A program made the position numbers and the translations under genes. This document shows, piece after piece, positions 6,835 through 23,712 of a DNA stretch of 60,363 nt; position 1 is the stretch's first letter, and each line of letters starts with the position of its first letter. This stretch comes from Zoogloeaceae bacterium. GTDB lineage: Bacteria > Pseudomonadota > Gammaproteobacteria > Burkholderiales > Rhodocyclaceae. Below the pieces are notes generated by a model. That model made no database searches. It saw nothing but the letters and a program-made list of their open reading frames with translations, and was not told the origin of the DNA. The stretch is from assembly GCA_031287525.1 (NCBI GenBank), contig JAITSU010000096.1:1-60363 (forward strand), read 5' to 3'.

Positions 6835-8034
6835 TCAAACGAGGGATAAACCGCGTTCCAGATCGGCTTTAACATCCTGCACGGCTTCCAGTCCGGCGGA
6901 AATCCGCAGCAAGCCTTCGGAAATACCGGCGGTAACGCGAGCTTCGGGCGTCAGGCGACCATGCGTGGTGGTGGCGGGATGAGTGATGGTGGTTTTGACA
7001 TCGCCCAGATTGGCGGTGATGGAGAGCAGTTTGCAGGCGTCAATGACCTGCCATGCGGCTTCTCTGGCGCCTTTTACTTCAAAACTGACGATGCCGCCGC
7101 CCCGCGTTTGTTGGCGCGCGGCGAGGTCGTGTTGAGGGTGCGAAGCGAGGTCGGGATGCCAGACCTTGATGACTTTGGGATGCGCTTCCAGCCAGCGCGC
7201 CAGTTGCAGCGCGTTGGCGGATTGCGCCTCAATCCGCAATTTCAGGGTTTCCAGGCCTTTCAGCAGCACCCAGGCGTTGAAGGCGGAAAGGCTGGGACCG
7301 GCGGTACGCAGGTATTTGAATACTTCGTCGGTGAGTTTTTTTGCGCCGCAAACCGCGCCGCCCAGCACCCTGCCCTGCCCGTCCAGATACTTGGTGGCGG
7401 AATACACCGAGAAATCCGCGCCGAGTTGCAGCGGCTTTTGCAGAATGGGTGTGCAAAAACTGTTATCGACCGCAACCAGAATATCGCTCGCATGCGCGAG
7501 ACGGGAGAGCGCGGCGATGTCGGCAATCCGGGTGAGCGGATTGGTTGGCGTTTCCAGAAAAAACAGTTTTGTTTTGCCCGGACGAATGGCGGCAGCCCAG
7601 GCGTCCGGGTCAGTCGCGTCGACGGTGGTCGTAGCGATGCCGCAGCGGGAAAGGATGTTGTTGAACAGTTGCAGGCTCGCGCCGAACAACTCGTTGGCGG
7701 CGACGATGTGCTCGCCCGCCTGCACATGCGCGAGGCATAACGCCATAATCGCGGACATGCCGCTGGCGGTGGCAACGCAGTCTTCCGCGCCTTCCAGCGC
7801 CGAGAGCCGCGCCTCGAACATGCTCGTGGTGGGGTTGGAGAAGCGGGCGTAAACATTGCCGGCTTCTTCGCCGGAAAAACGGGCGGCGGCCTGGGCGGCG
7901 TTCTCAAAGACGAAGCTGGAAGTCAGATACAGGGCTTCGGCGTGTTCACCGAACTGGCTGCGCTCCTGCCCTGCCCGCACGGCAAGGGTTTCAGGCGCAA
8001 GCGTGTCGGGCGTGTCAGGCATCGGGAAATTCAT
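6835..8034 (-). CDS. metZ: O-succinylhomoserine sulfhydrylase
   Basis: 399 aa PLP enzyme of the Cys/Met metabolism family that forms homocysteine directly from O-succinylhomoserine and sulfide. Motifs are ALYLTSSFVFENAAQAAARF, YARFSNPTTSMFE, VDNSFCTPILQKPLQLGADFSVYSATKYLDGQGR (the PLP lysine follows SATK) and GGGIVSFEVKG. The position directly after purF, with a 3-bp gap, is standard in betaproteobacteria and supports MetZ over MetB. Substrate choice between succinyl and acetyl esters cannot be read from the sequence alone. Confidence 0.93.
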   Translation of the reverse strand: MNFPMPDTPDTLAPETLAVRAGQERSQFGEHAEALYLTSSFVFENAAQAAARFSGEEAGNVYARFSNPTTSMFEARLSALEGAEDCVATASGMSAIMALCLAHVQAGEHIVAANELFGASLQLFNNILSRCGIATTTVDATDPDAWAAAIRPGKTKLFFLETPTNPLTRIADIAALSRLAHASDILVAVDNSFCTPILQKPLQLGADFSVYSATKYLDGQGRVLGGAVCGAKKLTDEVFKYLRTAGPSLSAFNAWVLLKGLETLKLRIEAQSANALQLARWLEAHPKVIKVWHPDLASHPQHDLAARQQTRGGGIVSFEVKGAREAAWQVIDACKLLSITANLGDVKTTITHPATTTHGRLTPEARVTAGISEGLLRISAGLEAVQDVKADLERGLSLV

Positions 8035-8037
8035 TTT

Positions 8038-9570
8038 TTAATCCTGACCTTCTTCATTGGAGGACAGCCCCAGCACCATCTGGCGGGAGTCTTCGCTATC
8101 CTCATCGCCCGCCTTGCCGCTGCGGTAGGCTTCGACGGCGTTCAGATATTCCGCCGTCACATCGCCGGTAACATAGCGACCATTGAAGCAGGAGGCATCG
8201 AAGGTGGCGAGGCGCGGATTCAGGGCGCTGATGGAGGCTTCCAGCGCGTCCAAATCCTGATAAACCAGCGCGTCCGCGCCGATTTCCAGCGCGATTTCGG
8301 CGTCGCTCTTGCCGGTGGCAATCAACTCGCCGCGCGTCGGCATGTCGATGCCATAGACATTAGGGAAACGCACCGGCGGCGCGGCGGAAGCGAAATACAC
8401 TTTCAACGCCCCGGCAGCCCGCGCCATTTCGACGATTTCGCGGCTGGTGGTGCCGCGCACAATGGAATCATCGACCAGCAGCACGCGCTTGCCCTTGAAT
8501 TCCTGCCCGATGGTGTTCAGCTTCTGGCGCACGGATTTTTCCCGCATGGACTGTCCGGGCATGATGAAAGTGCGCCCCACATAGCGGTTCTTCACAAAAC
8601 CTTCGCGGTAGGGCAGTTTCAGCTTTTGCGCCAGTTGCATGGCGGCGGGACGGCTGGAATCGGGGATGGGAATCACCACGTCGATGTGGTCGAGCGGAAT
8701 ATGCTGTTTCACCTTGTCGGCAAGAAACTCACCCATCGACAGACGGGTTTCATAGACGGAAACCCCGTCCATGATGGAATCGGGGCGGGCGAGATAGACG
8801 TATTCAAAAATACAGGGCGCGAGCGTGGTTTTTTCGGCGCACTGGCGGGCGCTGAAATGGCGGTTGAGGTCGATGAACACGGCTTCGCCGGGTTCGACAT
8901 CGCGCAAAACATGAAAGCCCAAAGCATCCATGGTCACGGATTCGGAAGCGACCAGATATTCCGTGCCGCCCGGCGCTGTGTGCGTACCCACCACCAGCGG
9001 GCGAATGCCATAAGGGTCGCGGAAGGCGAGCAGCCCGTAACCGGCAATCATGGCGACCACGGCGTAAGCGCCCTTGCAGCGGCGATGCACGCCCGCCACG
9101 GCGGTGAAAATGGCGTCCAAGTCCAGCTGGTGTCCCTTGGCGGCAGCTTGCAGTTCATGCGCCAGCACATTCAAGAGCACTTCCGAATCGGAATTGGTAT
9201 TCACATGCCGCAAATCCTGCTCGAACATGGCGCGCTTCAGGGCGTCGGAATTGGTCAGATTGCCGTTGTGCGCCAGCGTGACGCCGAAGGGCGAATTCAC
9301 GTAAAAGGGCTGCGCCTCGGCAAAATTGAATGCCGAACCCGCTGTTGGATAGCGGCAATGACCGATGCCCCAATTCCCCGGCAGCGCCCGCATGTTACGG
9401 GTGCGAAACACATCCCGCACAAGCCCTGGCCCCTTGTGCAGGTGAAAGGTACGCCCCTCCGCCGTGGCGATGCCCGCCGCGTCCTGCCCACGGTGCTGGA
9501 GCACCATGAGACCGTCGTAAAGAAGTTGGTTAACCGGAGTGGTAGCGACGACGCCGAGAACACCGCACAT
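8038..9570 (-). CDS. purF: amidophosphoribosyltransferase
   Basis: 510 aa. It catalyses the first committed step of purine synthesis, from PRPP and glutamine to phosphoribosylamine. After removal of Met the N-terminus is Cys2 (MCGVLGVV), the Ntn glutaminase nucleophile, so the mature enzyme needs no long propeptide. HRGQDAAGI, the PRPP-binding motif VLLVDDSIVRGTTSREIV near residue 365, and VYGIDMPTR are present. It lies in the cvpA-purF-metZ order seen widely in beta- and gammaproteobacteria. Confidence 0.97.
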   Translation of the reverse strand: MCGVLGVVATTPVNQLLYDGLMVLQHRGQDAAGIATAEGRTFHLHKGPGLVRDVFRTRNMRALPGNWGIGHCRYPTAGSAFNFAEAQPFYVNSPFGVTLAHNGNLTNSDALKRAMFEQDLRHVNTNSDSEVLLNVLAHELQAAAKGHQLDLDAIFTAVAGVHRRCKGAYAVVAMIAGYGLLAFRDPYGIRPLVVGTHTAPGGTEYLVASESVTMDALGFHVLRDVEPGEAVFIDLNRHFSARQCAEKTTLAPCIFEYVYLARPDSIMDGVSVYETRLSMGEFLADKVKQHIPLDHIDVVIPIPDSSRPAAMQLAQKLKLPYREGFVKNRYVGRTFIMPGQSMREKSVRQKLNTIGQEFKGKRVLLVDDSIVRGTTSREIVEMARAAGALKVYFASAAPPVRFPNVYGIDMPTRGELIATGKSDAEIALEIGADALVYQDLDALEASISALNPRLATFDASCFNGRYVTGDVTAEYLNAVEAYRSGKAGDEDSEDSRQMVLGLSSNEEGQD

Positions 9571-9584
9571 GATGATTTCCTGAT

Positions 9585-10079
9585 TTATCTGAATTTAATC
9601 CGTTTGGTCATTTCTTCCGGCAACCACGGCTGCAACGCCAGCACGGCAATTTCCAGCGGCGGCGCGAGTTTCGCTTCCGCCCACCAGATTTCCCTGGGTA
9701 ACGGCGTCATGCCACCGATGATGACCAGAACAAGCACAATCAATAATCCACGCAGCGCGCCAAACAGCAGCCCCAGAAAGCGGTCGACAAAGCCCAGACC
9801 CAGCGCGCGAATCACGCCGCGAATGAGCATCTGCACCAGCGCCATCAATACGAGCGTGAGCATGAACACCAGCGCCCAACCCGCGAGGATGCGGACATTC
9901 TCGTCGCTGACGCTGCTGGCAAACAGGCTTTGCCCGATTTCCGCGCCAAAGGCGCGCGCCGCGAGAAACGCCAGCACCCAGGCCGCCAGAGCCACCACCT
10001 CGCCCACCATGCCGCGCCAAAGCCCCAGCGACAGGGACAAGCCGATGATGCCAAGCACACCGTAATCGAAAGCCGTCAT
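9585..10079 (-). CDS. cvpA: CvpA family inner-membrane protein
   Basis: 164 aa with about four hydrophobic helices: DYGVLGIIGLSLSLGLWRG, VVALAAWVLAFLAARAFG, GWALVFMLTLVLMALVQMLI and GLLIVLVLVIIGG. This matches CvpA, first named for colicin V production and later linked to envelope stress tolerance. It lies 14 bp upstream of purF, the conserved pairing, and 6 bp after the SPOR-domain gene. Confidence 0.93.
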   Translation of the reverse strand: MTAFDYGVLGIIGLSLSLGLWRGMVGEVVALAAWVLAFLAARAFGAEIGQSLFASSVSDENVRILAGWALVFMLTLVLMALVQMLIRGVIRALGLGFVDRFLGLLFGALRGLLIVLVLVIIGGMTPLPREIWWAEAKLAPPLEIAVLALQPWLPEEMTKRIKFR

Positions 10080-10085
10080 CGTCGC

Positions 10086-10871
10086 TCATTGGGGGACGAC
10101 AGAGCCGGAAACGCCAGCGCCCTGTATTTTGCCCAACGCCCGCTCCGCCGCCTCGCGGCTGACGAAGGGACCGGCGCGCACCCGCGTAATCTTGCCCTGC
10201 GGCGAATCCAGCGCCTCGGTATAAACGGGAATCCGCAACTCCGTGAGTTTCTGTTTCAGGCTCTGGACTTTCGCGGCGTCGGCAAAAGCGCCGATTTGCA
10301 CGACATGCGGAACATTGGGGACGGCGGCAGTTGTGGACGCGACGGCGGGTTTGGGCGCAGTTGGCGAGGCAGCGACAACATCCGGCGACTTGCCCGCAAG
10401 AATGGCGGCGGCGCGTTGCGCTTCAATTTCGGCGGGGGTTGGTTTTTTGGCTTCCGGTTTGGTTTCCGGTTTCGGCGTAGCGGGTTTGGCTTCCGGCTTG
10501 GGCGCAATCGTCGTCTGCGTCGCCTGCGTCGTCTGCGTCGGTTGCGGCGTGGTTTGCGTCACCGTGACCGTCGGCGTCGCCGCTGGAACTTGCGTCTGTG
10601 GTGTCGGCGCAACGGGTTCGGGCAGCGCCGCAGGTTCGGCGGGAACGGGGACAGGCACAGCGATGAGCGCCGCTTCCGGTTGCAGCGGCGCGAGCGCGGC
10701 GTCGTTCTGCCCCGGAATCCGGATTTCCACATCCTGCGCGGGCGGCGGCGGCTCGTGGTTCATCACCAGCGGCAACGCCAACGCCGCGAACGCGGCAAAG
10801 GCAATCGCGCCCACCAGTCGGCGGCGCGCCCTCTTTTTGAGTTGCAACTGAACGTCGTCAGCATCGTTCAT
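10086..10871 (-). CDS. SPOR-domain protein (peptidoglycan-binding, DedD-like)
   Basis: 261 aa. One N-terminal transmembrane helix (about residues 20-36, AIAFAAFAALALPLV) is followed by a long Pro/Thr/Ala/Lys-rich periplasmic linker. The last 75 residues form a SPOR domain (HVVQIGAFADAAKVQSLKQKL...AERALGKIQGAGVSG). SPOR domains bind denuded glycan strands at the division septum. I chose the ATG at 10871 because it overlaps the folC TGA (ATGA); an in-frame ATG 9 bp further up is possible. The position between folC and cvpA is the usual betaproteobacterial one. Confidence 0.9.
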   Translation of the reverse strand: MNDADDVQLQLKKRARRRLVGAIAFAAFAALALPLVMNHEPPPPAQDVEIRIPGQNDAALAPLQPEAALIAVPVPVPAEPAALPEPVAPTPQTQVPAATPTVTVTQTTPQPTQTTQATQTTIAPKPEAKPATPKPETKPEAKKPTPAEIEAQRAAAILAGKSPDVVAASPTAPKPAVASTTAAVPNVPHVVQIGAFADAAKVQSLKQKLTELRIPVYTEALDSPQGKITRVRAGPFVSREAAERALGKIQGAGVSGSVVPQ

Positions 10872-12265
10872 GCGTGGCATTTCCTTGCGCTTCCCTGTTT
10901 TTCCACCTCGTCAGCAGGTTCAACCGGGTACCGATTCAGTACCCGAAGAACGGCGGCGACCGTGTAGAAAGATCCAAAGGCGAGAATTCTATCATTTTCG
11001 CCCGCCTTTTCCTCTGCCGCGGCAAATGCCGTCGCCGGATTATCGTAACAACTGAAGGTGGCGTCAGGGTCAGCGACCAGTAAACGCTCCGCCAGCGCCG
11101 CCGCCGTCAGCCCGCGCGCGCCCTCCAGCGTCGCCAGAAACCAGTGATCGACTTTTCCCCGCAAGGCGGCGATGCTGCCCGCCACATCCTTGTCCGCCAA
11201 CATGCCCAGCACCGCATGGGTCTGCCCGAAAAATCCCATTCCGGCAAGATTTCCCGCCAACACCCGCGCGGCCTGCGGATTGTGCCCCACATCCAGCACA
11301 ATGGCAGGACGCCCCGGCAAAACCTGAAACCGCCCCGGCAACACAGTCTGAATCAGCCCTTCACGAATCGCCTGCATGGAAACCGGCAAGCGATCGCCCA
11401 AGGCTTCCAGCGCGGCGATGGCAAGGCTAGCGTTTTTCAGTTGCGCCGCGCCGCGTAAACCTGGATAGGCGAGATTGCGACGCCGAAGCGCCGCGCTCCC
11501 TCTCCCCTGCCCCGCTCCCACAAGGGGAGCGGAGTTCTGTGAAATCCAATAACGCCATTGCTGGCGATTCTCTTCGTCCTGCTGAAAACCAAAATCCCGC
11601 CCCATGATGAACAAAGGCGCGTTCAACTTCGCCGCATATTCGACCAGACTTTGCGGCGGCTCGGCGTCGCCGCACAAAGCGGGGCGTCCGGCGCGAAAAA
11701 TCCCCGCTTTCTCGAAGCCGATACTTTCGCGGTCATGCCCCAACCAATCCTGATGATCCAAATCCACCGTCGTCACCAACGCCACATCCGGGTCGTAAAG
11801 ATTCACCGCGTCCAGCCGCCCGCCCAACCCCACTTCCAGCGTCAGCGCCTCGCATCCGGCGGCGGCGAACACCTGCCACGCCGCCAGCGTACCGAATTCA
11901 AAATAGGTTAAAAACACATCTCCCGCCGCCCGCCGCGCCGCTTCCACCTCGGCAAAAGCCGTGCACAAGGCGGCGTCGCTGACCGGCACACCGCCAACCC
12001 GCACCCGTTCGTTGTAACGCAACAAATGCGGAGAGCTGTAACTCCCCACCCGATACCCCGCCCGCGACAGGATGGATTCCAGATACGCCACAGTAGAACC
12101 CTTGCCATTCGTCCCCGCCACGGTGATGATCGGACAAAAAGAGCGCTGCCCCAAGGCGTCGCTCACCTGCCGCGCGCGCTCCAAGCCTAATTCGATACCC
12201 GCCTGTCCTTTGGGGTGCAGGCTTTCGAGATAGGCGAGCCAGGAAGAAAGGTCGTGAGGGAGCAT
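10868..12265 (-). CDS. folC: folylpolyglutamate / dihydrofolate synthase (core folC part)
   Basis: 465 aa when started at the ATG at 12265 (MLPHDLSSWLAYLESLHPKG), which is where other FolC proteins begin. It adds glutamate to dihydropteroate and folates using ATP. The Mur-ligase motifs ITVAGTNGKGSTVAYLESI, SYSSPHLLRYNERV, LDHQDWLGHDRESIGFEKAG and VLDVGHNPQAA are intact, so the enzyme should work. Two oddities are present. The frame is open upstream through a full Hint domain (listed separately). An insert of about 18 residues (SAPLVGAGQGRGSAALR region) is encoded by a palindromic repeat at 11498-11532. No good ribosome site is visible before 12265, which favours translation from the fused upstream start. 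Confidence 0.93.
   Translation of the reverse strand: MLPHDLSSWLAYLESLHPKGQAGIELGLERARQVSDALGQRSFCPIITVAGTNGKGSTVAYLESILSRAGYRVGSYSSPHLLRYNERVRVGGVPVSDAALCTAFAEVEAARRAAGDVFLTYFEFGTLAAWQVFAAAGCEALTLEVGLGGRLDAVNLYDPDVALVTTVDLDHQDWLGHDRESIGFEKAGIFRAGRPALCGDAEPPQSLVEYAAKLNAPLFIMGRDFGFQQDEENRQQWRYWISQNSAPLVGAGQGRGSAALRRRNLAYPGLRGAAQLKNASLAIAALEALGDRLPVSMQAIREGLIQTVLPGRFQVLPGRPAIVLDVGHNPQAARVLAGNLAGMGFFGQTHAVLGMLADKDVAGSIAALRGKVDHWFLATLEGARGLTAAALAERLLVADPDATFSCYDNPATAFAAAEEKAGENDRILAFGSFYTVAAVLRVLNRYPVEPADEVEKQGSARKCHA
11498..11532. repeat. palindromic repeat inserted in the folC coding sequence
   Basis: The stretch contains CCGCTCCC and GGGAGCGG (11512-11519 and 11525-11532, 5-nt loop) preceded by CTCCCTCTCCCC. 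It resembles the intergenic palindrome at 57354-57481 (CCCTCTCCCCTTGTGGGAG). It codes in frame for a Gly/Arg/Ala-rich stretch that typical FolC sequences lack at this place. Confidence 0.6.
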
Positions 12266-12817
12266 GTCGGATATGGAATTTTCGCTTGTGATGTCACAAA
12301 AATCCGGAAGCACAACAGACTTATTGCCCTTGTTATGAACCCATACACCTAATTTTCCTACGTAGTAGGTATGAAACTCATCAACTTCAAGGTTGTAAAC
12401 ACGAGTTCTCTCTTCAGTAGGTTTCCTGTCCCTATTTGTCAATAAATTAGCAAAATTATAGCTACCCAACACATTTCCGGCACTCATTAATTGGCTCGCA
12501 GGTACCCATCCAGCGTCTTTTTCATGAATCGGGTGATTTGGTGTAACCTTGATTACCTCTTCAATGCCATTTGCCAAGTTCAGTGCAATTAATTTACACA
12601 CGATTTCATCATCGTGTACAAATGTTGCAGTTACCTTCCGATAGGTATACTCATGCTCTTCGCGTATGTGAAGTGGAGGTACTTGATCTTCAGGATACGA
12701 CAAGACCCAGTCGCCGACGCGAATACCCTCAATCGGTTTTAACCCTTCTTTGGTATGCACCAAAGTCCCTGCCGCGAAGCAAGTATTCCAGCTATCAAGC
12801 CTGTTCATCGCTTTCAC
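12266..12817 (-). CDS. Hint (intein-like) domain fused in frame to FolC
   Basis: This is the N-terminal 184 codons of a 649-aa open frame that continues into FolC. It begins with GTG at 12817, which has a consensus AGGAGG 8 nt upstream and overlaps the DUF2726 stop (GTGA). Residues 13-162 are a pretoxin-type Hint domain: block A CFAAGTLVHTKEGLKPIEG with Cys13, block B VTPNHP with Thr92 and His95, and terminal block VYNLEVDEFHTYYVG...VWVHN ending His161-Asn162. Such domains normally self-cleave and release C-terminal toxins of polymorphic toxin proteins. Here the 22-residue spacer KGNKSVV... is followed by FolC. The region is visibly AT-richer than folC, pointing to transfer. Whether cleavage happens is unknown. 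Confidence 0.85.
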
Positions 12818-13269
12818 CGCACCACCCTCCTGATTTCCTCAACACTCGGCATTTTTTTAACGTGGAATTCGACAAACGAAATCCCCGCCGCCGCGAACGC
12901 CTTGCGTTTGAATTCGTCGCTTCTGGCGCGGTCAGGGCGTTCGTGGGTGGAATCTTGCAACTCCACGACAACCCGCACGCTGGCATCGTCCGCGCAAATC
13001 ACGAAATCGGCGCTTTTTTGCAAGACCCGATTCAACGCCGCCATCCGTTCCTTGCCGCCGCCTGCTTTCAGAAAACTGCTCAGTTGCACCTGCGCCAGCA
13101 CCCGATATTCAGGCAAGGCTTGCAATAGCCGCTTATACAAAACGAGTTCGGATTTGGTCATCACCGGCTTGGACGTATAAGGGTACGGAATCCCGCGCTT
13201 CAGCCCAAACCAGAGCGCCAACAGCACGATGGCGACGATGATGATGAACAGCAGCGAGTTGGTGTCCAT
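12814..13269 (-). CDS. DUF2726 membrane-anchored protein
   Basis: About 151 aa from the ATG at 13269 (MDTNSLLFIIIV); starts at 13281 or 13299 are also possible and would overlap the upstream gene. An N-terminal transmembrane helix (LLFIIIVAIVLLALWFGL) is followed by a DUF2726 domain: SKPVMTKSELVLYKRLLQALPEYRVLAQVQLSSFL, FVICADDASVRVVVELQDSTH and an RRRKAFAAAGI-like segment. DUF2726 resembles a nuclease-like fold of the topoisomerase/restriction type, function unproven. The stop overlaps the GTG of the Hint-FolC frame, and the ribosome site for that frame lies within the last codons of this gene. Confidence 0.85.
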   Translation of the reverse strand: MDTNSLLFIIIVAIVLLALWFGLKRGIPYPYTSKPVMTKSELVLYKRLLQALPEYRVLAQVQLSSFLKAGGGKERMAALNRVLQKSADFVICADDASVRVVVELQDSTHERPDRARSDEFKRKAFAAAGISFVEFHVKKMPSVEEIRRVVR

Positions 13270-13280
13270 GTACTGCCGCA

Positions 13281-14783
13281 TCACGCCAGCACTTCCCAAG
13301 ACCCGCTTTTCCTGCCACCAACACGACGCAGCAGACCGTTTTTCTGGAGCGTCTGAAGATGTCGCTGTACCGACCGCCCAGTGATGCCAATCTGCGCGGC
13401 AAGCTCTGGAATCGTAATCGTGTTTCTTTCCCGACAGGCAGCCAGAATCTTTCCCGACACACCCTCGTGCTCTTTTCCGACGCTTTTCCGACGCTTCTCA
13501 GGTTCTTTCACGACGCTTTCACGACGCTTGTCTTCGCTTTCACGACGCACTCTAGCGTCTTTCACGACACTTTCTTCTTTCGGCGTTTCGCTTCCATATT
13601 CCGCCAAAATCAGTTCTTCCACCGGCTGCCGACGCACTGTCACGGTGAACAGGCAACCATCGTGATCGTCGGAAAATTCGATGTCCGCCCACTTTTCCAG
13701 CGCCCGTTTGATGCCTGAACCCAGACCGTGATAAGGCAGCAAGCCCTTTGCCACGTAGGAAACGAGAATGGGATTACGGATATTGGAGTTTCCGGCTCGA
13801 ATCTTGTCCACGGTCAGGTTGTTGGGCAGATGACCGGGGCTGATGATTTCGATGCGGTTATCGAATACGAACAGCCGAATCGGGGCGCTGACCAGATAAT
13901 CACGATGCGCCAGCGCATTGACCAGCAATTCCTCGAAAACCACTGCGGGAATCTCCGGCGTACCTGGCGCATTCACGCCGCGCCCGGCTTGTGTCTTGTG
14001 CAGATTACGCATGACAAAAGCCAGCGCGCCGTCAAAAATTTTCGGCAGCGCCCCGGAAAAATCTTCGGTATCCACGTAATCGCTGGCGTGAATTTCATTG
14101 CCGGGATAGCGAATCGCTTTCACCACAAATTGCGGCACAATCCACTCCGGCTGTTCGGCAAACAGCAGTACGCCCGCCAGATTCAGGTTTCCGTCTTCGA
14201 CTGCCAGATTCATGTTTTGCAGCAAGCGGGTCAATTCAGCGGGCGAATCGGGATATTCGCGCTGATAAACATCGCGCAAAAAATCGCGGAAACGCAGTTT
14301 ATCCAGCTTGTCGATACCCGCCTTGGTCGGCAGTTCGTCGGCGTGAAATTGATTGGAAAGCTGAAACAGGCGGCGCAATTCTTCCTTGGAATTCACCCGC
14401 CGCTTGTCTGCCCCCGCTTTCAACCAAATGACGCCATTTTTGTCGAAATAAGGTTTGTCAATGCCCTTGGGTACGGTCAGCACAATCACGATCCGACCAT
14501 CCGCCAACGCCACATTTTCCGTATGCACGACCAGCGGACTACGCACCAACTGGCTGGCGGCGCTGCTGATGAGTTGGTTGATGCGCGCGACATCCTGTTT
14601 TGACAAACCCGGCGTCAAGCCATCATCGGTAACGCCGATAAAAATCTCGCCGCCCTTGCTGTTGGCGAACGCCGCCATCTCGGAAGCCAGAGATTCGGCG
14701 TTTTTGACATCCACCTTGAACTGGCGCGTGGAATCTTCGCCAAGGGAGATTTGTTCAAGAATGAATTTGTCGGCAGCGGTCAT
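13281..14783 (-). CDS. AlbA_2 / Schlafen-type DNA-binding, RecG-like protein
   Basis: 500 aa. The N-terminal AlbA_2 domain contains EDSTRQFKVDVKNAESLASEMAAFANSKGGEIFIGVTDDG in outline. The middle has LLVNALAHRDYLVSAPIRLFVFDNRIEIISPGHLPN, and later GLGSGIKRAL, the pattern annotated as putative transcriptional regulator or RecG-like ATP-binding. A hydrophilic linker (about residues 400-440) is built from RRES/VVKE repeats. The C-terminus is a winged helix (ITIPELAAQIGITGRSVQRHLQTLQKNGLLRRVG). Related proteins are linked to regulation and phage defence, but the role here is unknown. It lies between accD and the DUF2726 gene, where relatives have none. Confidence 0.85.
   Translation of the reverse strand: MTAADKFILEQISLGEDSTRQFKVDVKNAESLASEMAAFANSKGGEIFIGVTDDGLTPGLSKQDVARINQLISSAASQLVRSPLVVHTENVALADGRIVIVLTVPKGIDKPYFDKNGVIWLKAGADKRRVNSKEELRRLFQLSNQFHADELPTKAGIDKLDKLRFRDFLRDVYQREYPDSPAELTRLLQNMNLAVEDGNLNLAGVLLFAEQPEWIVPQFVVKAIRYPGNEIHASDYVDTEDFSGALPKIFDGALAFVMRNLHKTQAGRGVNAPGTPEIPAVVFEELLVNALAHRDYLVSAPIRLFVFDNRIEIISPGHLPNNLTVDKIRAGNSNIRNPILVSYVAKGLLPYHGLGSGIKRALEKWADIEFSDDHDGCLFTVTVRRQPVEELILAEYGSETPKEESVVKDARVRRESEDKRRESVVKEPEKRRKSVGKEHEGVSGKILAACRERNTITIPELAAQIGITGRSVQRHLQTLQKNGLLRRVGGRKSGSWEVLA
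13450..13574. repeat. degenerate 12-13-bp repeats in the AlbA_2 gene linker
   Basis: About seven copies of a unit reading GCGTCGTGAAAG on the minus strand (variants GCGTCGGAAAAG and GTGTCGTGAAAG). Copies are read in two different reading frames, giving RRES in some and VVK in others, so the conservation is at the DNA level. Confidence 0.75.
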
Positions 14784-14822
14784 GGCGACGACGATTTCGG
14801 GAATGGGGCGATTCGATAAAAA

Positions 14823-15695
14823 TCATGCCGCCGCTGGCAATTTCTGCAACAGCGCCAGCGTTTGCGCCAGTTTGTCGCGCATTTCGCGGCGGTCGACAAT
14901 CAAGTCTATCGCGCCTTTTTCGAGCAGGAATTCTGAACGCTGAAACCCTTCCGGCAGAGTTTCGCGTACCGTCTGTTCGATGACGCGCGGCCCGGCGAAG
15001 CCAATCAGCGCGCCGGGTTCTGCCATCACAATATCGCCAACGAAGGCAAAGGAAGCGGAAACGCCGCCCATCGTCGGGTCGGTGAGGATGGAGATGAAGG
15101 GCAAGCCGCGCTCGGAAAGCCGTGTCAGCGCCGCCGTGGTTTTTGCCATTTGCATCAGCGAAAACAGCCCTTCCTGCATCCGCGCGCCGCCGGAAGCGGT
15201 GACGCAGAGGAAGGGAATGTCATCTTCCAGCGCCGCCTTGACGCCACGCACGAAACGCTCGCCCAGCACGGAACCCATTGAGCCGCCCATGAAGCTGAAT
15301 TCAAAACAGGCGGCGACCACCGGCAGGGTTTTAATCGCGCCCTGCATGACCACGAGGGAATCGGTTTCGCCCGCGCTCTCGGCGGCATCTTTCAGCCGCG
15401 CGGGATAGGCTTTGCTGTCCTTGAATTTGAGACTGTCGACGGGCAACACCTCGCTGCCGATTTCCTGACGCCCTTCCGTGTCCAGCAAAATGTCCAGACG
15501 TTGCCGCGCTTTCAGGCGATGGTGATAGCCGCACTTCGGGCAGACTTGCAGATTCGCTTCCAAATCAGTGGCATACAGCACCGCCTCGCACGCCGGACAT
15601 TTGCTCCACAAGCCTTCCGGCAGGGTGTTGCGACGCGGCGCGGCGTTGTCACGATTGATTTTGGGGGGCAACAGTTTGTTCAACCAGCTACTCAT
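14823..15695 (-). CDS. accD: acetyl-CoA carboxylase carboxyltransferase subunit beta
   Basis: 290 aa. It transfers the carboxyl group from carboxybiotin to acetyl-CoA together with AccA. The N-terminal zinc ribbon shows [23 protein letters not shown], and the crotonase-fold region contains [22 protein letters not shown] and [15 protein letters not shown]. Length is standard. In related bacteria folC follows directly; here three inserted elements intervene. Its biotin partners accB and accC are at 43.5-45.3 kb. Confidence 0.97.
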
Positions 15696-15708
15696 CTAAG
15701 ACTCCTTG

Positions 15709-16038
15709 TCAATCAATAATACAACCGCATTTGAAAATGGGGCTGTAAAGTGCTGCGGCTATGGCGACAAAACCCAACAGACTCATGAACAGGGCAAGAA
15801 CAACACGGCTTCCCGATGAACGCTTGTTCGCCCAGAACATCAACGCAATACAAAGTGCAGGCAAGCTCCACCACAATGCCCATGTATTGAGAAACAATAG
15901 TGTGTATGCGGATAGTTCAGCGCCAAACAATTGAAACATATCAGCAAAATGTCCCCGAACAGCAAGAAGCAGGATTTGCAACAGCGTCAGGAGCGCCGCC
16001 AACAGCAAAGCGAGGACAAAAGCTAATTTTTTCAGCAT
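15709..16038 (-). CDS. small membrane protein of unknown function
   Basis: 109 aa, three hydrophobic helices: LAFVLALLLAALLTLLQILLL, LSAYTLLFLNTWALWWSLPALCIALMF and VVLALFMSLLGFVAIAAAL. The tail CGCIID is cysteine-rich. No family is recognised. It sits in the same orientation between trpA (5 bp away) and accD (13 bp away), a place normally without a gene. The tight spacing and sensible start (ATG at 16038) suggest a real gene of the operon. Confidence 0.7.
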   Translation of the reverse strand: MLKKLAFVLALLLAALLTLLQILLLAVRGHFADMFQLFGAELSAYTLLFLNTWALWWSLPALCIALMFWANKRSSGSRVVLALFMSLLGFVAIAAALYSPIFKCGCIID

Positions 16039-16043
16039 CAGTT

Positions 16044-16850
16044 TTACGAACTTCCAGCGTCCACGCCCCGCCGCAATTCCCCCATCAGGGCAGCGAGCCG
16101 CGTCAGTTCTTCGCCAGCGGGCGCTTCTTCCAATGCTTCGATGATGCGGCTGCCGACCACTACGGCGTCAGCGACGGCGGCCATTTTCGCGGCGGTTGCC
16201 GCGTCGCGGATGCCGAAGCCTACGCCGACGGGTACACCGACGGCGGCGCGGATGGCGGGCAGGCGGGCGGCGACTTCGGCGGTGTTGAGTTGCGCGGAGC
16301 CGGTCACGCCTTTCAGGGAAACGTAATACACGTAACCACTCGCCTCAGCCGCCACCGCTGTGTAACGCTCCGGCGTCGAAGTCGGCGCGAGCAGGAATAT
16401 CGGGTCAAGTTCATGACGGCGCAGGGCAATCGCAAATTCAGCGATTTCTTCGGGCGGATAATCCACCACCAGCACACCATCCACGCCCGCTTCCCTGGCG
16501 GCCTGGGCGAAGATTTCCTGCCCCATCGCTTCAATGGGATTGGCGTAACCCATCAGCACTATGGGCGTTTCCCTGTCGCGCTGGCGGAATTCGGCAACGG
16601 CTGCCAACACTTTATGCAGCGTCATGCCGTTCGCCAGGGCTTTTTCGGAAGAACGCTGGATGGTAGGGCCGTCTGCCATCGGGTCGGAAAAGGGCACACC
16701 CAGCTCAATGACATCGGCGCCGGATTCCACCAGCGTGTGCATCAGCGGCACAGTCAGGTCAAGGCGCGGAAAACCGGCGGTAACGAAGGGAATCAACGCC
16801 TTGCGCTGTGCGGCGGCGAGACGTTCAAAGGTGGGTTTTATGCGCGACAT
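16044..16850 (-). CDS. trpA: tryptophan synthase alpha subunit
   Basis: 268 aa TIM barrel that cleaves indole-3-glycerol phosphate to indole, which is tunnelled to TrpB. Visible motifs are [29 protein letters not shown] (catalytic Glu), [10 protein letters not shown] and [16 protein letters not shown]. It starts one base after the trpB stop, as expected for a coupled complex. Length is normal. Confidence 0.97.
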
Positions 16851-21314: not shown

Positions 21315-22082
21315 CTACACATTGAATCTTTTGAAATAATCGTCAATTTCATCACGCATCTCGATACCCACGCGCTCAAAACAGTCAAGAAGTTCTTCGT
21401 AACTGCCCTCACCGCCAAGGAAGTCCCAAAACTCTTTTTCAATAAGTACATCATCGAGTTCAAGAACTCCTCGCATTTGCCAACTTTGAAAATGTTCTGG
21501 ATAAAATGGATTGTATGTAAATGCCACCAATGCCCGAACATCAACATTCGAGTTTGTGGTCATCGCAACAGCAGACCATTCAAGAATGGTACGCTTAAAT
21601 CCTTTGAATTCACCGACATTTGGTTTCGGAGATTTCATGTCAAACAGCCACTCTACACCATCATTGTCCACGAGATAAAGGTCAACTCTCGTAGGTTTGC
21701 TCTTGCGCTTTTCTCCAGATAGTGATTGGCGCAACAATTGCAGTTCGACTGATTTATCAGGAGTTGCTTTTGCCGTTTGTAAATCACTCATAATGTTTTC
21801 AATTACATCACGACAATCTGAATAAAGTTCATCACCAACGACATATTGACATTCAGCTTTTGCAAAACGCCCACGAGCAAGCGAAACGGCTACAGGTTCA
21901 AATACCGACGACCCAAATGTTGTGTTAAGCGAATGAATAAAAGAGTACAGCGCATAACGGTCACGCCCAAGCAACTTATGGTGAAATGGCATATAGTTGT
22001 CCTTTGGCTTGTAGTGACTGAATTTTTTGCGTAGGCAGTCTTTTATTGTCTTCTCTACACTTTCCCGAAGTTCATTGTCCAT
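21315..22082 (-). CDS. type II restriction endonuclease, TdeIII/MjaII-like
   Basis: 255 aa. The nuclease centre of the PD-(D/E)xK type is visible as Asp134 (TRVDLYLVDN) and Asp148-Met-Lys150 (VEWLFDMKSPKPN). Its start overlaps the last 11 bp of the methyltransferase gene, the usual arrangement for a restriction pair. The overall look suggests the TdeIII/MjaII family, which cuts GGNCC; that specificity is recalled from family knowledge and is tentative. Composition is AT-richer than the flanks. Confidence 0.7.
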   Translation of the reverse strand: MDNELRESVEKTIKDCLRKKFSHYKPKDNYMPFHHKLLGRDRYALYSFIHSLNTTFGSSVFEPVAVSLARGRFAKAECQYVVGDELYSDCRDVIENIMSDLQTAKATPDKSVELQLLRQSLSGEKRKSKPTRVDLYLVDNDGVEWLFDMKSPKPNVGEFKGFKRTILEWSAVAMTTNSNVDVRALVAFTYNPFYPEHFQSWQMRGVLELDDVLIEKEFWDFLGGEGSYEELLDCFERVGIEMRDEIDDYFKRFNV

Positions 22083-23712
22083 TTACACGCTCCCGCAGAT
22101 GAAATATGGTTTCTGAGTACGCCGCCTTATCTTTTTCGGAACGGTTCAAAACTGGACGCCGAAACGTATTGACAATCTGCATTCCTGCATTATTTGCAAT
22201 GGTCGGGTAGAGATTATGTTTATCATTCGCCACCAAGAATACATTGTAGCCTTCCGCAAGAAACCGCTTGCAGTTGAGTAGCACCTGAGAGATACCTTCA
22301 ACATAGCTACGCTGCGCTTCCTTTCCCTTGCCTTTGAACAGCGGCCCAATCTCTGATTCGTCATGCCGCTTGAAACCAAACAAATCGTAAGCGTAGGCAT
22401 GTTGCTCGTGATAATCAATCATGCCCACATATGGCGGGGACGAAAAAATACCATTTATTTTGCGTTCAGCTACCATATCGGCAAACTGCACGGCAAACTG
22501 CGAATCACGCGCACGCAGCGCAGCTATTATATCAACACTTCTGCTGTCCCCAGTAATACAATGCTGCATTGTTTGCGTCCGCAGATGATCAAATGTAATA
22601 AGCCGCGCCACTGTATCCTTAGCATATGACTCCCACCACTTTGCAATTGAAAACAATGGTTTACAAATTTTCCCATGCTTGGAGCAGTAGTATGTATTCG
22701 TCACTGGCTCAATCAGTGTTGCAAGGTCAGAGTGTGTTGTCGCCCGACAACTTCTTATCGTCCGACTTAGTACAACAGCCAGTATCTTCTTCGTTTTTTG
22801 ATTAACGATATTATTGATACGCTCAAAAACAAAATCTATCTCATCGCGCACCTGTTGAGAAAACCACTTTTCCAAGAAATTGCTCTCCCTGTCTTGCCGG
22901 AGCTTCACGCCGTATTCCTCTACAAGCGCGTTATATGTCGACATGAAATGCGCTTCCATTTCTCGACCATACGCATCTTCATTTATCTCTCCCTGTCGCA
23001 ACCGATACTTGTAGTCAGGTACGGGAAAAAATTCGTTGTTAAAGCGATTAAGTTCAGCGAGAAGCCTATTCTCAAATTCTGTAATCCGAGAATTGGCAAT
23101 AAATTCGCGCAAGGCGCATGTTATGCGGTTCATCTCGATTTTAATATCAGCAACATCATATCGAGCAACCTTGCAATTTGCAATCAGGGCATTAAACTCC
23201 GAAACATCAATGCCGATAGCGTTTATTCCACATTCGTTAGCCTGCACCATTGTTGTTCCGCTGCCGGAAAACGGGTCAAGAATTATGTCGCCAGCTTGAA
23301 AATACGCTTCCCGTTTGAAATTGTCGACATGTCCATCAATGAAATACTCAACAAGCTGGGGAATAAATTTCCCTTTGTACGGGTGCAGTCTATGAACGTG
23401 CTTCGTCGATTCAGCTTCCTTAACCTGTGAAAAAGAGAGCGTCCAGTTGATGTCCTCTCCGAGCCGTGCTTTATAGTTCATTTCTCGAACGCCATCATAT
23501 GAATCGTAATAACTTTCGAGGTCAGACACGGATACCCTTACGGAACCGCCAAGCTCAAGCTTGCGAACACGTCCATACTGAATCAAATACGAAATGTTGG
23601 ACGCGGTAACATTTCGCCCAACTCGTTGTGTCGCCCACGCAGATGCCTCAGGCACGGTTAGCAAGTCGTACATTCCCTGTTGCGCCGGTATAAATGAAAG
23701 CTGCTCCATCAT
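22072..23712 (-). CDS. type II DNA methyltransferase (N4C/N6A-type) with N-terminal HTH
   Basis: 546 aa. Residues 15-75 form a helix-turn-helix of excisionase/MerR style (LLTVPEASAWATQRVGRNVTASNISYLIQYGRVRKLELGGSVRV in outline), which could autoregulate the system. The SAM-binding motif ILDPFSGSGTTMVQANECG is at 144-162 and the catalytic motif SSPPYVGMIDYHEQHAY near residue 425. SPPY favours N4-cytosine methylation. The motif order (SAM motif first) is not the usual beta class. It protects DNA from the overlapping endonuclease gene downstream. Confidence 0.85.
   Translation of the reverse strand: MMEQLSFIPAQQGMYDLLTVPEASAWATQRVGRNVTASNISYLIQYGRVRKLELGGSVRVSVSDLESYYDSYDGVREMNYKARLGEDINWTLSFSQVKEAESTKHVHRLHPYKGKFIPQLVEYFIDGHVDNFKREAYFQAGDIILDPFSGSGTTMVQANECGINAIGIDVSEFNALIANCKVARYDVADIKIEMNRITCALREFIANSRITEFENRLLAELNRFNNEFFPVPDYKYRLRQGEINEDAYGREMEAHFMSTYNALVEEYGVKLRQDRESNFLEKWFSQQVRDEIDFVFERINNIVNQKTKKILAVVLSRTIRSCRATTHSDLATLIEPVTNTYYCSKHGKICKPLFSIAKWWESYAKDTVARLITFDHLRTQTMQHCITGDSRSVDIIAALRARDSQFAVQFADMVAERKINGIFSSPPYVGMIDYHEQHAYAYDLFGFKRHDESEIGPLFKGKGKEAQRSYVEGISQVLLNCKRFLAEGYNVFLVANDKHNLYPTIANNAGMQIVNTFRRPVLNRSEKDKAAYSETIFHLRERVNGQ

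Follow-up and report, generated by a model that had tools for sequence, protein, structure and literature searches.

The window analysed here, a stretch of 60,363 nucleotides from an uncultured Zoogloeaceae bacterium, carries on its minus strand an open frame of 649 codons (10868..12817, from a GTG at 12817-12815 to a stop ending at 10868) in which a Hint domain and folylpolyglutamate synthase (FolC) are joined. A sequence-only reading of this DNA had reported the frame at these coordinates, without its strand, as a complete pretoxin-type Hint domain followed by an intact FolC, and profile searches bear out both parts. Residues 19-162 match the PT-HINT family (PF07591) at 64.4 bits, above the cut-off of 27.7, and the five motif residues Cys13, Thr92, His95, His161 and Asn162 are all present. 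The FolC part starts at residue 185, at the former start codon ATG 12265 (10868..12265, minus strand); residues 189-629 match the FolC equivalog model PRK10846 at 421.4 bits (cut-off 360), the FolC subfamily model TIGR01499 scores 324.4 bits (cut-off 162.65), and solved homologues are 3n2a (E 3e-105) and 1w78 (E 5e-102). Linking the Hint (Cys13 to Asn162; 12332..12781, minus strand) to FolC is a tail of 22 residues (163-184; 12266..12331, minus strand) with no Pfam match, presumably the start of a lost toxin domain; on the toxin side of the Hint no other Pfam or NCBIfam domain scored above cut-off, and FolC comes next. The first 217 codons hold no stop in the fusion frame, against 13 and 21 in the other two frames. 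The GC content is 0.43 in the inserted DNA and 0.61 in the FolC part, although the AT-richness alone is not telling, since 2.1% of 981 windows of the insert's size are equally AT-rich. Elsewhere in the window (21315-23712), an AT-rich gene pair looks, by eye, like a DNA methyltransferase and a restriction enzyme.

Hint self-processing domains are known from toxins, hedgehog proteins and inteins (PMC4031507, PMC7664689, PMC5874633, PMC3482391, PMC4725963). The best solved relative of the folC Hint is 2lwy, a bacterial intein-like (BIL) domain, and the alignment runs from residue 13 to exactly Asn162; at E 8.9e-16 this match is not due to chance. An AlphaFold2 model of residues 1-184, folded with an alignment of 18 viral-contig relatives, has a mean pLDDT of 79.8 and a pTM of 0.78 (a combined alignment for the whole fusion set Hints onto FolC and was discarded). 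The domain has the features of a type A BIL: an N-terminal Cys, a block B Thr-x-x-His (Thr92 to His95), a His-Asn end, about 150 residues and no Cys, Ser or Thr at the +1 position, where Lys163 follows the WVHN motif. It differs from known BILs, which occupy variable regions of bacterial proteins, secreted toxins for instance (PMC5874633, PMC4725963), in standing N-terminal on a folate enzyme, and its cleavage is a prediction from sequence. With the PT-HINT domains of polymorphic toxins it shares the family score and the motifs, but no secretion part precedes it, and FolC rather than the C-terminal toxin domain of a secreted protein follows. Like an intein, it is an in-frame Hint in a housekeeping gene with predicted self-processing; unlike one, it stands right after the start codon and has no endonuclease domain within its 150 residues, and the Lys at +1, in place of the nucleophile of standard splicing, rules out a standard intein.

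Related folC genes were found at nine loci in named genomes, the closest being Zoogloeaceae MAG records and 'Betaproteobacteria bacterium MS502-89'; the MAG isolates are of termite-gut origin. MS502-89 provides an empty site. Its DNA is 84-86% identical to the window over 8010-12255 and 12814-16745, and on its side only about 10 nt separate the two aligned blocks that flank the position of the insert. There, the TGA of a DUF2726 gene overlaps the folC ATG and an AGGAGG lies just upstream. At the equivalent position of the window the stop of the DUF2726 gene (12814..13299, minus strand; PF10881, 82.2 bits) overlaps the GTG of the fusion (GTGA), followed by 549 nt, or 183 codons, and then by ATG 12265. 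By this comparison the insert (codons 2-184; 12266..12814, minus strand) is placed directly after folC codon 1; as the opening codons of folC are variable, its ends can be fixed only to within a few nt. We regard the in-frame insertion and the shared frame as real and well supported. No transposase was matched within the insert, all 549 nt of which read as Hint frame, and no direct repeat or target duplication was detected around it (the best candidate, a 13-mer, has E 1.4), so that an insertion leaving direct repeats was rejected for folC.

A third state of this junction occurs in two further relatives (L070 and L021), which are alike: about 50 nt of other sequence, at about 1996-2050 of L070, in which a 16-codon leader can be made out by eye, its stop overlapping a new folC ATG. 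Provided that MS502-89 shows the older state, the folC start has taken in added DNA at least twice. The interval between accD and folC in the window (12814-14783) holds a Schlafen/AlbA-type gene as well as the DUF2726 gene; MS502-89 has both, L070 aligns over the DUF2726 gene and accD and not over the Schlafen gene, and in several other relatives accD adjoins folC. The interval seems to be prone to insertion.

The start signal of the fusion is that of folC itself. The AGGAGG (12826..12831, minus strand) lies within the 3' end of the DUF2726 gene, 8 nt ahead of the GTG, and the same motif precedes the folC ATG of MS502-89. Its predicted duplex with the 16S tail has an energy of -10.8 kcal/mol, against -1.5 kcal/mol before the internal ATG 12265; among the 1029 minus-strand ATGs of the window, 0.6% have a site at least as strong as the former and 89% one at least as strong as the latter. 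With a strong ribosome site at the GTG and none at the internal ATG, FolC is most likely translated as a Hint fusion. The sequence-only reading had pointed to the same motif and spacing, to the lack of a clear site at ATG 12265 and to FolC being probably made as the fusion, all of which agrees with the duplex energies. Its further suggestion, that the Hint was retained for supplying translation, does not hold: both the AGGAGG and the start position belong to folC, as the empty site of MS502-89 shows, and the Hint is thereby ruled out as the source of the ribosome site.

The FolC part is under purifying selection, with a dN/dS of 0.138 against MS502-89, and no acceleration is indicated on the window's side: with L070 as outgroup, 15 changes fall on the window branch versus 27 on the MS502-89 branch (chi-square 3.4, not significant). 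In the organism's own genome, which is 94% complete, there is one FolC-type match. Within FolC, positions 11493-11543 form a short in-frame stretch resembling the palindromic repeats of this genome, CTCCCCTTGTGGGAGCGGGGCAGGGGAGAGGGAG; about 30 nt of it are missing in MS502-89, and the sequence of L070 is different there.

The Hint-FolC combination was seen in one genome only, among 60 genomes and the nine named-genome loci. The fusion query matched 57 of the 60 genomes (own included; E <= 0.001), and among the matches listed those to FolC in other genomes begin at residue 171 or later, none within the Hint; two genomes gave partial matches, G011 to a C-terminal FolC fragment alone and G021, weakly, to a portion of the ligase alone. 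Comparison with homologues had been proposed earlier as a check on how recent the Hint is. No Hint was seen in the frame upstream of folC at 38 other loci (29 from the 60-genome search and the nine named-genome loci; among the 38, three pairs look like the same record, and of eight upstream frames longer than 60 residues the last 60 were inspected). A Hint on folC shared across the genus was not seen, either in the 60 genomes or at the 38 loci. The PF07591 family itself was matched in 6 of the 20 genus genomes, in 23 of 399 genomes of the order (own included, limited to 90% completeness) and in 2 of 14 control genomes, and a Hint protein query found relatives in 5 of 150 family genomes, own included.

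The insertion at folC does not stand alone. Four other places in this genome (C38, C64, C91 and C94) carry Hint cassettes, two of them beside housekeeping genes. At C38, two tandem Hint frames lie between zipA and ligA (the latter recognised by eye), in a gap of about 1,660 nt; of 19 other loci, 9 showed both genes, with gaps of about 11 to 559 nt. At C64, one Hint follows tilS. C94 and C91 have two Hints each, those of C94 after a VanZ-family gene, and by eye RHS-like fragments lie near both, at contig ends; the RHS_repeat profile PF05593 had no match in this genome. In related genomes, cassettes are found after rlmB, after uvrB and before radA (radA by eye) in G017, and after a Trp/Tyr-tRNA synthetase gene and about 550 nt after murJ in G001. 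Several cassette starts overlap the upstream gene, in an ATGA at rlmB and over 25 nt at uvrB. In these cases cassette and neighbour point the same way, which by simple ORF calls is not so for G012 C3, G001 C55 and G017 C24.

The closest relatives of the folC Hint are the second Hints of C94 and C91, at 59 and 57% identity. The sequence immediately preceding the Hints of C64 and G002 C95 is found again ahead of a Hint that ends a 10,144-residue frame in G006, which by eye we judge to be a giant toxin-like surface protein; this open frame spans nearly the whole of contig 137 (L145-L146). The toxin-module origin suggested by the sequence-only reading is supported, and the insert is probably a displaced Hint module with its toxin part cut to 22 residues. 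Polymorphic toxins are described as varied by recombination with standalone cassettes (PMC3482391). Those 3' cassettes resemble the Hint modules in being displaced 3' modules of large toxin genes; as described there they accompany toxin genes, whereas the modules here lie in housekeeping operons, mostly without a toxin part recognisable by eye.

We infer from these observations that the fusion is translated, cleaved and tolerated. According to this model, which we consider somewhat more probable than not, a processing module from the polymorphic toxins of the lineage, made up of the Hint/BIL and a short stub of a lost toxin, would have entered folC in frame after codon 1. Ribosomes starting at folC's own signals would make Hint-FolC, the Hint would fold, and cyclisation of Asn162 would release FolC with 22 extra N-terminal residues, a number (residues 163-184) given correctly by the sequence-only reading, the cut itself being predicted. 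For the cell, the insertion would then be about as tolerable as an intein, mainly through cleavage because residue +1 is Lys. In the BIL literature, type A domains, with their His-Asn end and no +1 nucleophile, are described as able to splice, with cleavage products dominating (PMC4031507; see also PMC7664689, PMC5874633), and cleavage activity is stated for the BIL domain of a Pseudomonas syringae CdiA (PMC4725963). Should splicing take place here, the 12 residues before Cys13 would be joined to the 22-residue tail, and FolC would again be freed from the Hint.

Release of FolC need not be required, because N-terminal extensions of enzymes are often harmless. The main rival to cleavage is that the fusion is made, FolC works while attached, and the Hint is a passive remnant bound to decay. 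We hold this to be rather unlikely, although FolC evolves normally, as such a tag would allow, and other cassettes do decay: both C38 copies have lost the first Cys, the G017 copy at rlmB has lost the last Asn, and the rlmB-site cassette of G012 has an internal stop. In the folC Hint, on the other hand, every motif residue is intact. Of the motif positions, C13, T92, H95 and H161 do not vary across 11 Hints from the genus, and N162 is retained in at least 90% of them. The first Cys and the last Asn are both present in 14 of 17 Hints (the one at folC included, and one from another genus), so the intact motifs of the folC copy are consistent with cleavage without proving selection for it. A claim of constraint on the Hint since insertion was dropped, as dS against its nearest paralogs is saturated; among paralog pairs, dN/dS is 0.28 for C94-2/C91-2 and 0.30 for C38a/C38b, and the pair C94-1/C91-1 is saturated.

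Three other explanations appear highly improbable. FolC could be translated separately from ATG 12265 with the Hint as a neighbouring gene lacking its own stop, as the retention of the old ATG and the separate frames of other cassettes abutting genes might suggest, but this ATG lacks a ribosome site and no stop divides Hint from FolC. An assembly or sequence artefact, in which a Hint-bearing contig piece was joined to folC or a frameshift is hidden, is conceivable in a draft genome of 113 contigs with several Hint copies, yet it is hardly credible given that both flanks are syntenic with MS502-89, that the frame is open and shared, and that the DNA of the insert shares no more than about 60-65% identity with its nearest copies, too little for a collapsed repeat. 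A device in which Hint cleavage controls FolC activity, for all the intact motifs and the otherwise constrained folC, is scarcely to be expected from a fusion found in one genome, with no Hint upstream of 38 other folC loci and no sign of a switch in the sequence.

The more unusual lead is the set of scattered cassettes, some of them lying between long direct repeats. Such repeats, of 90-194 bp, flank 3 of the 11 cassettes tested (sequence downstream was lacking for the uvrB cassette and limited to 218 nt for C64), the one at folC not among them: C94 (L053 6998-8510; 194 bp, 94%), the radA cassette of G017 (L054 4555-7730; 90 bp, 97%) and G004 C172 (L067 746-1978; 106 bp, 86%). At radA and C94 the cassette frame opens with duplicated codons, the first 21 and 13, respectively, of the host frame downstream, whose own start persists in the other repeat; the radA gene runs on from it, and the C94 frame has only 46 codons. 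The radA cassette includes a frame of 1029 residues (L054 4582-7671) with three tandem Hints and translated repeat elements, which begins with the 21 radA codons and ends overlapping the radA start. About 2.5 kb from a Hint cassette of G004, direct repeats follow one another at a period of about 105 bp (L067 4312-5500), by eye a KWGYI-type repeat protein.

With this in mind, one may speculate that the Hint modules of this clade are a dispersing class of element of their own: short, without their own transposase, entering housekeeping operons and in some cases generating a target duplication of 90-194 bp, by which the module gains a host-frame start while the other copy stays. It would be self-cleavage that lets a needed gene such as folC survive being entered in frame, giving an intein-like life style built from toxin parts. 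We put this forward tentatively and think it doubtful as it stands.

In a literature search that lay mostly outside subscription journals, we found no report of a Hint domain on folylpolyglutamate synthase or of Hint-enzyme fusions, and no description of toxin-gene pieces spreading as scattered cassettes with long direct repeats. What seems novel is the place, a known self-processing domain where we found none reported. A folate gene under constraint that carries a Hint directly behind its start codon is a natural experiment on whether cleavage is enough for such a domain to persist in a needed gene, and the scattered cassettes with their long direct repeats point to a way of spreading pieces of toxin genes. 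The Hint-folC fusion may be a plausible step between toxin parts and inteins.
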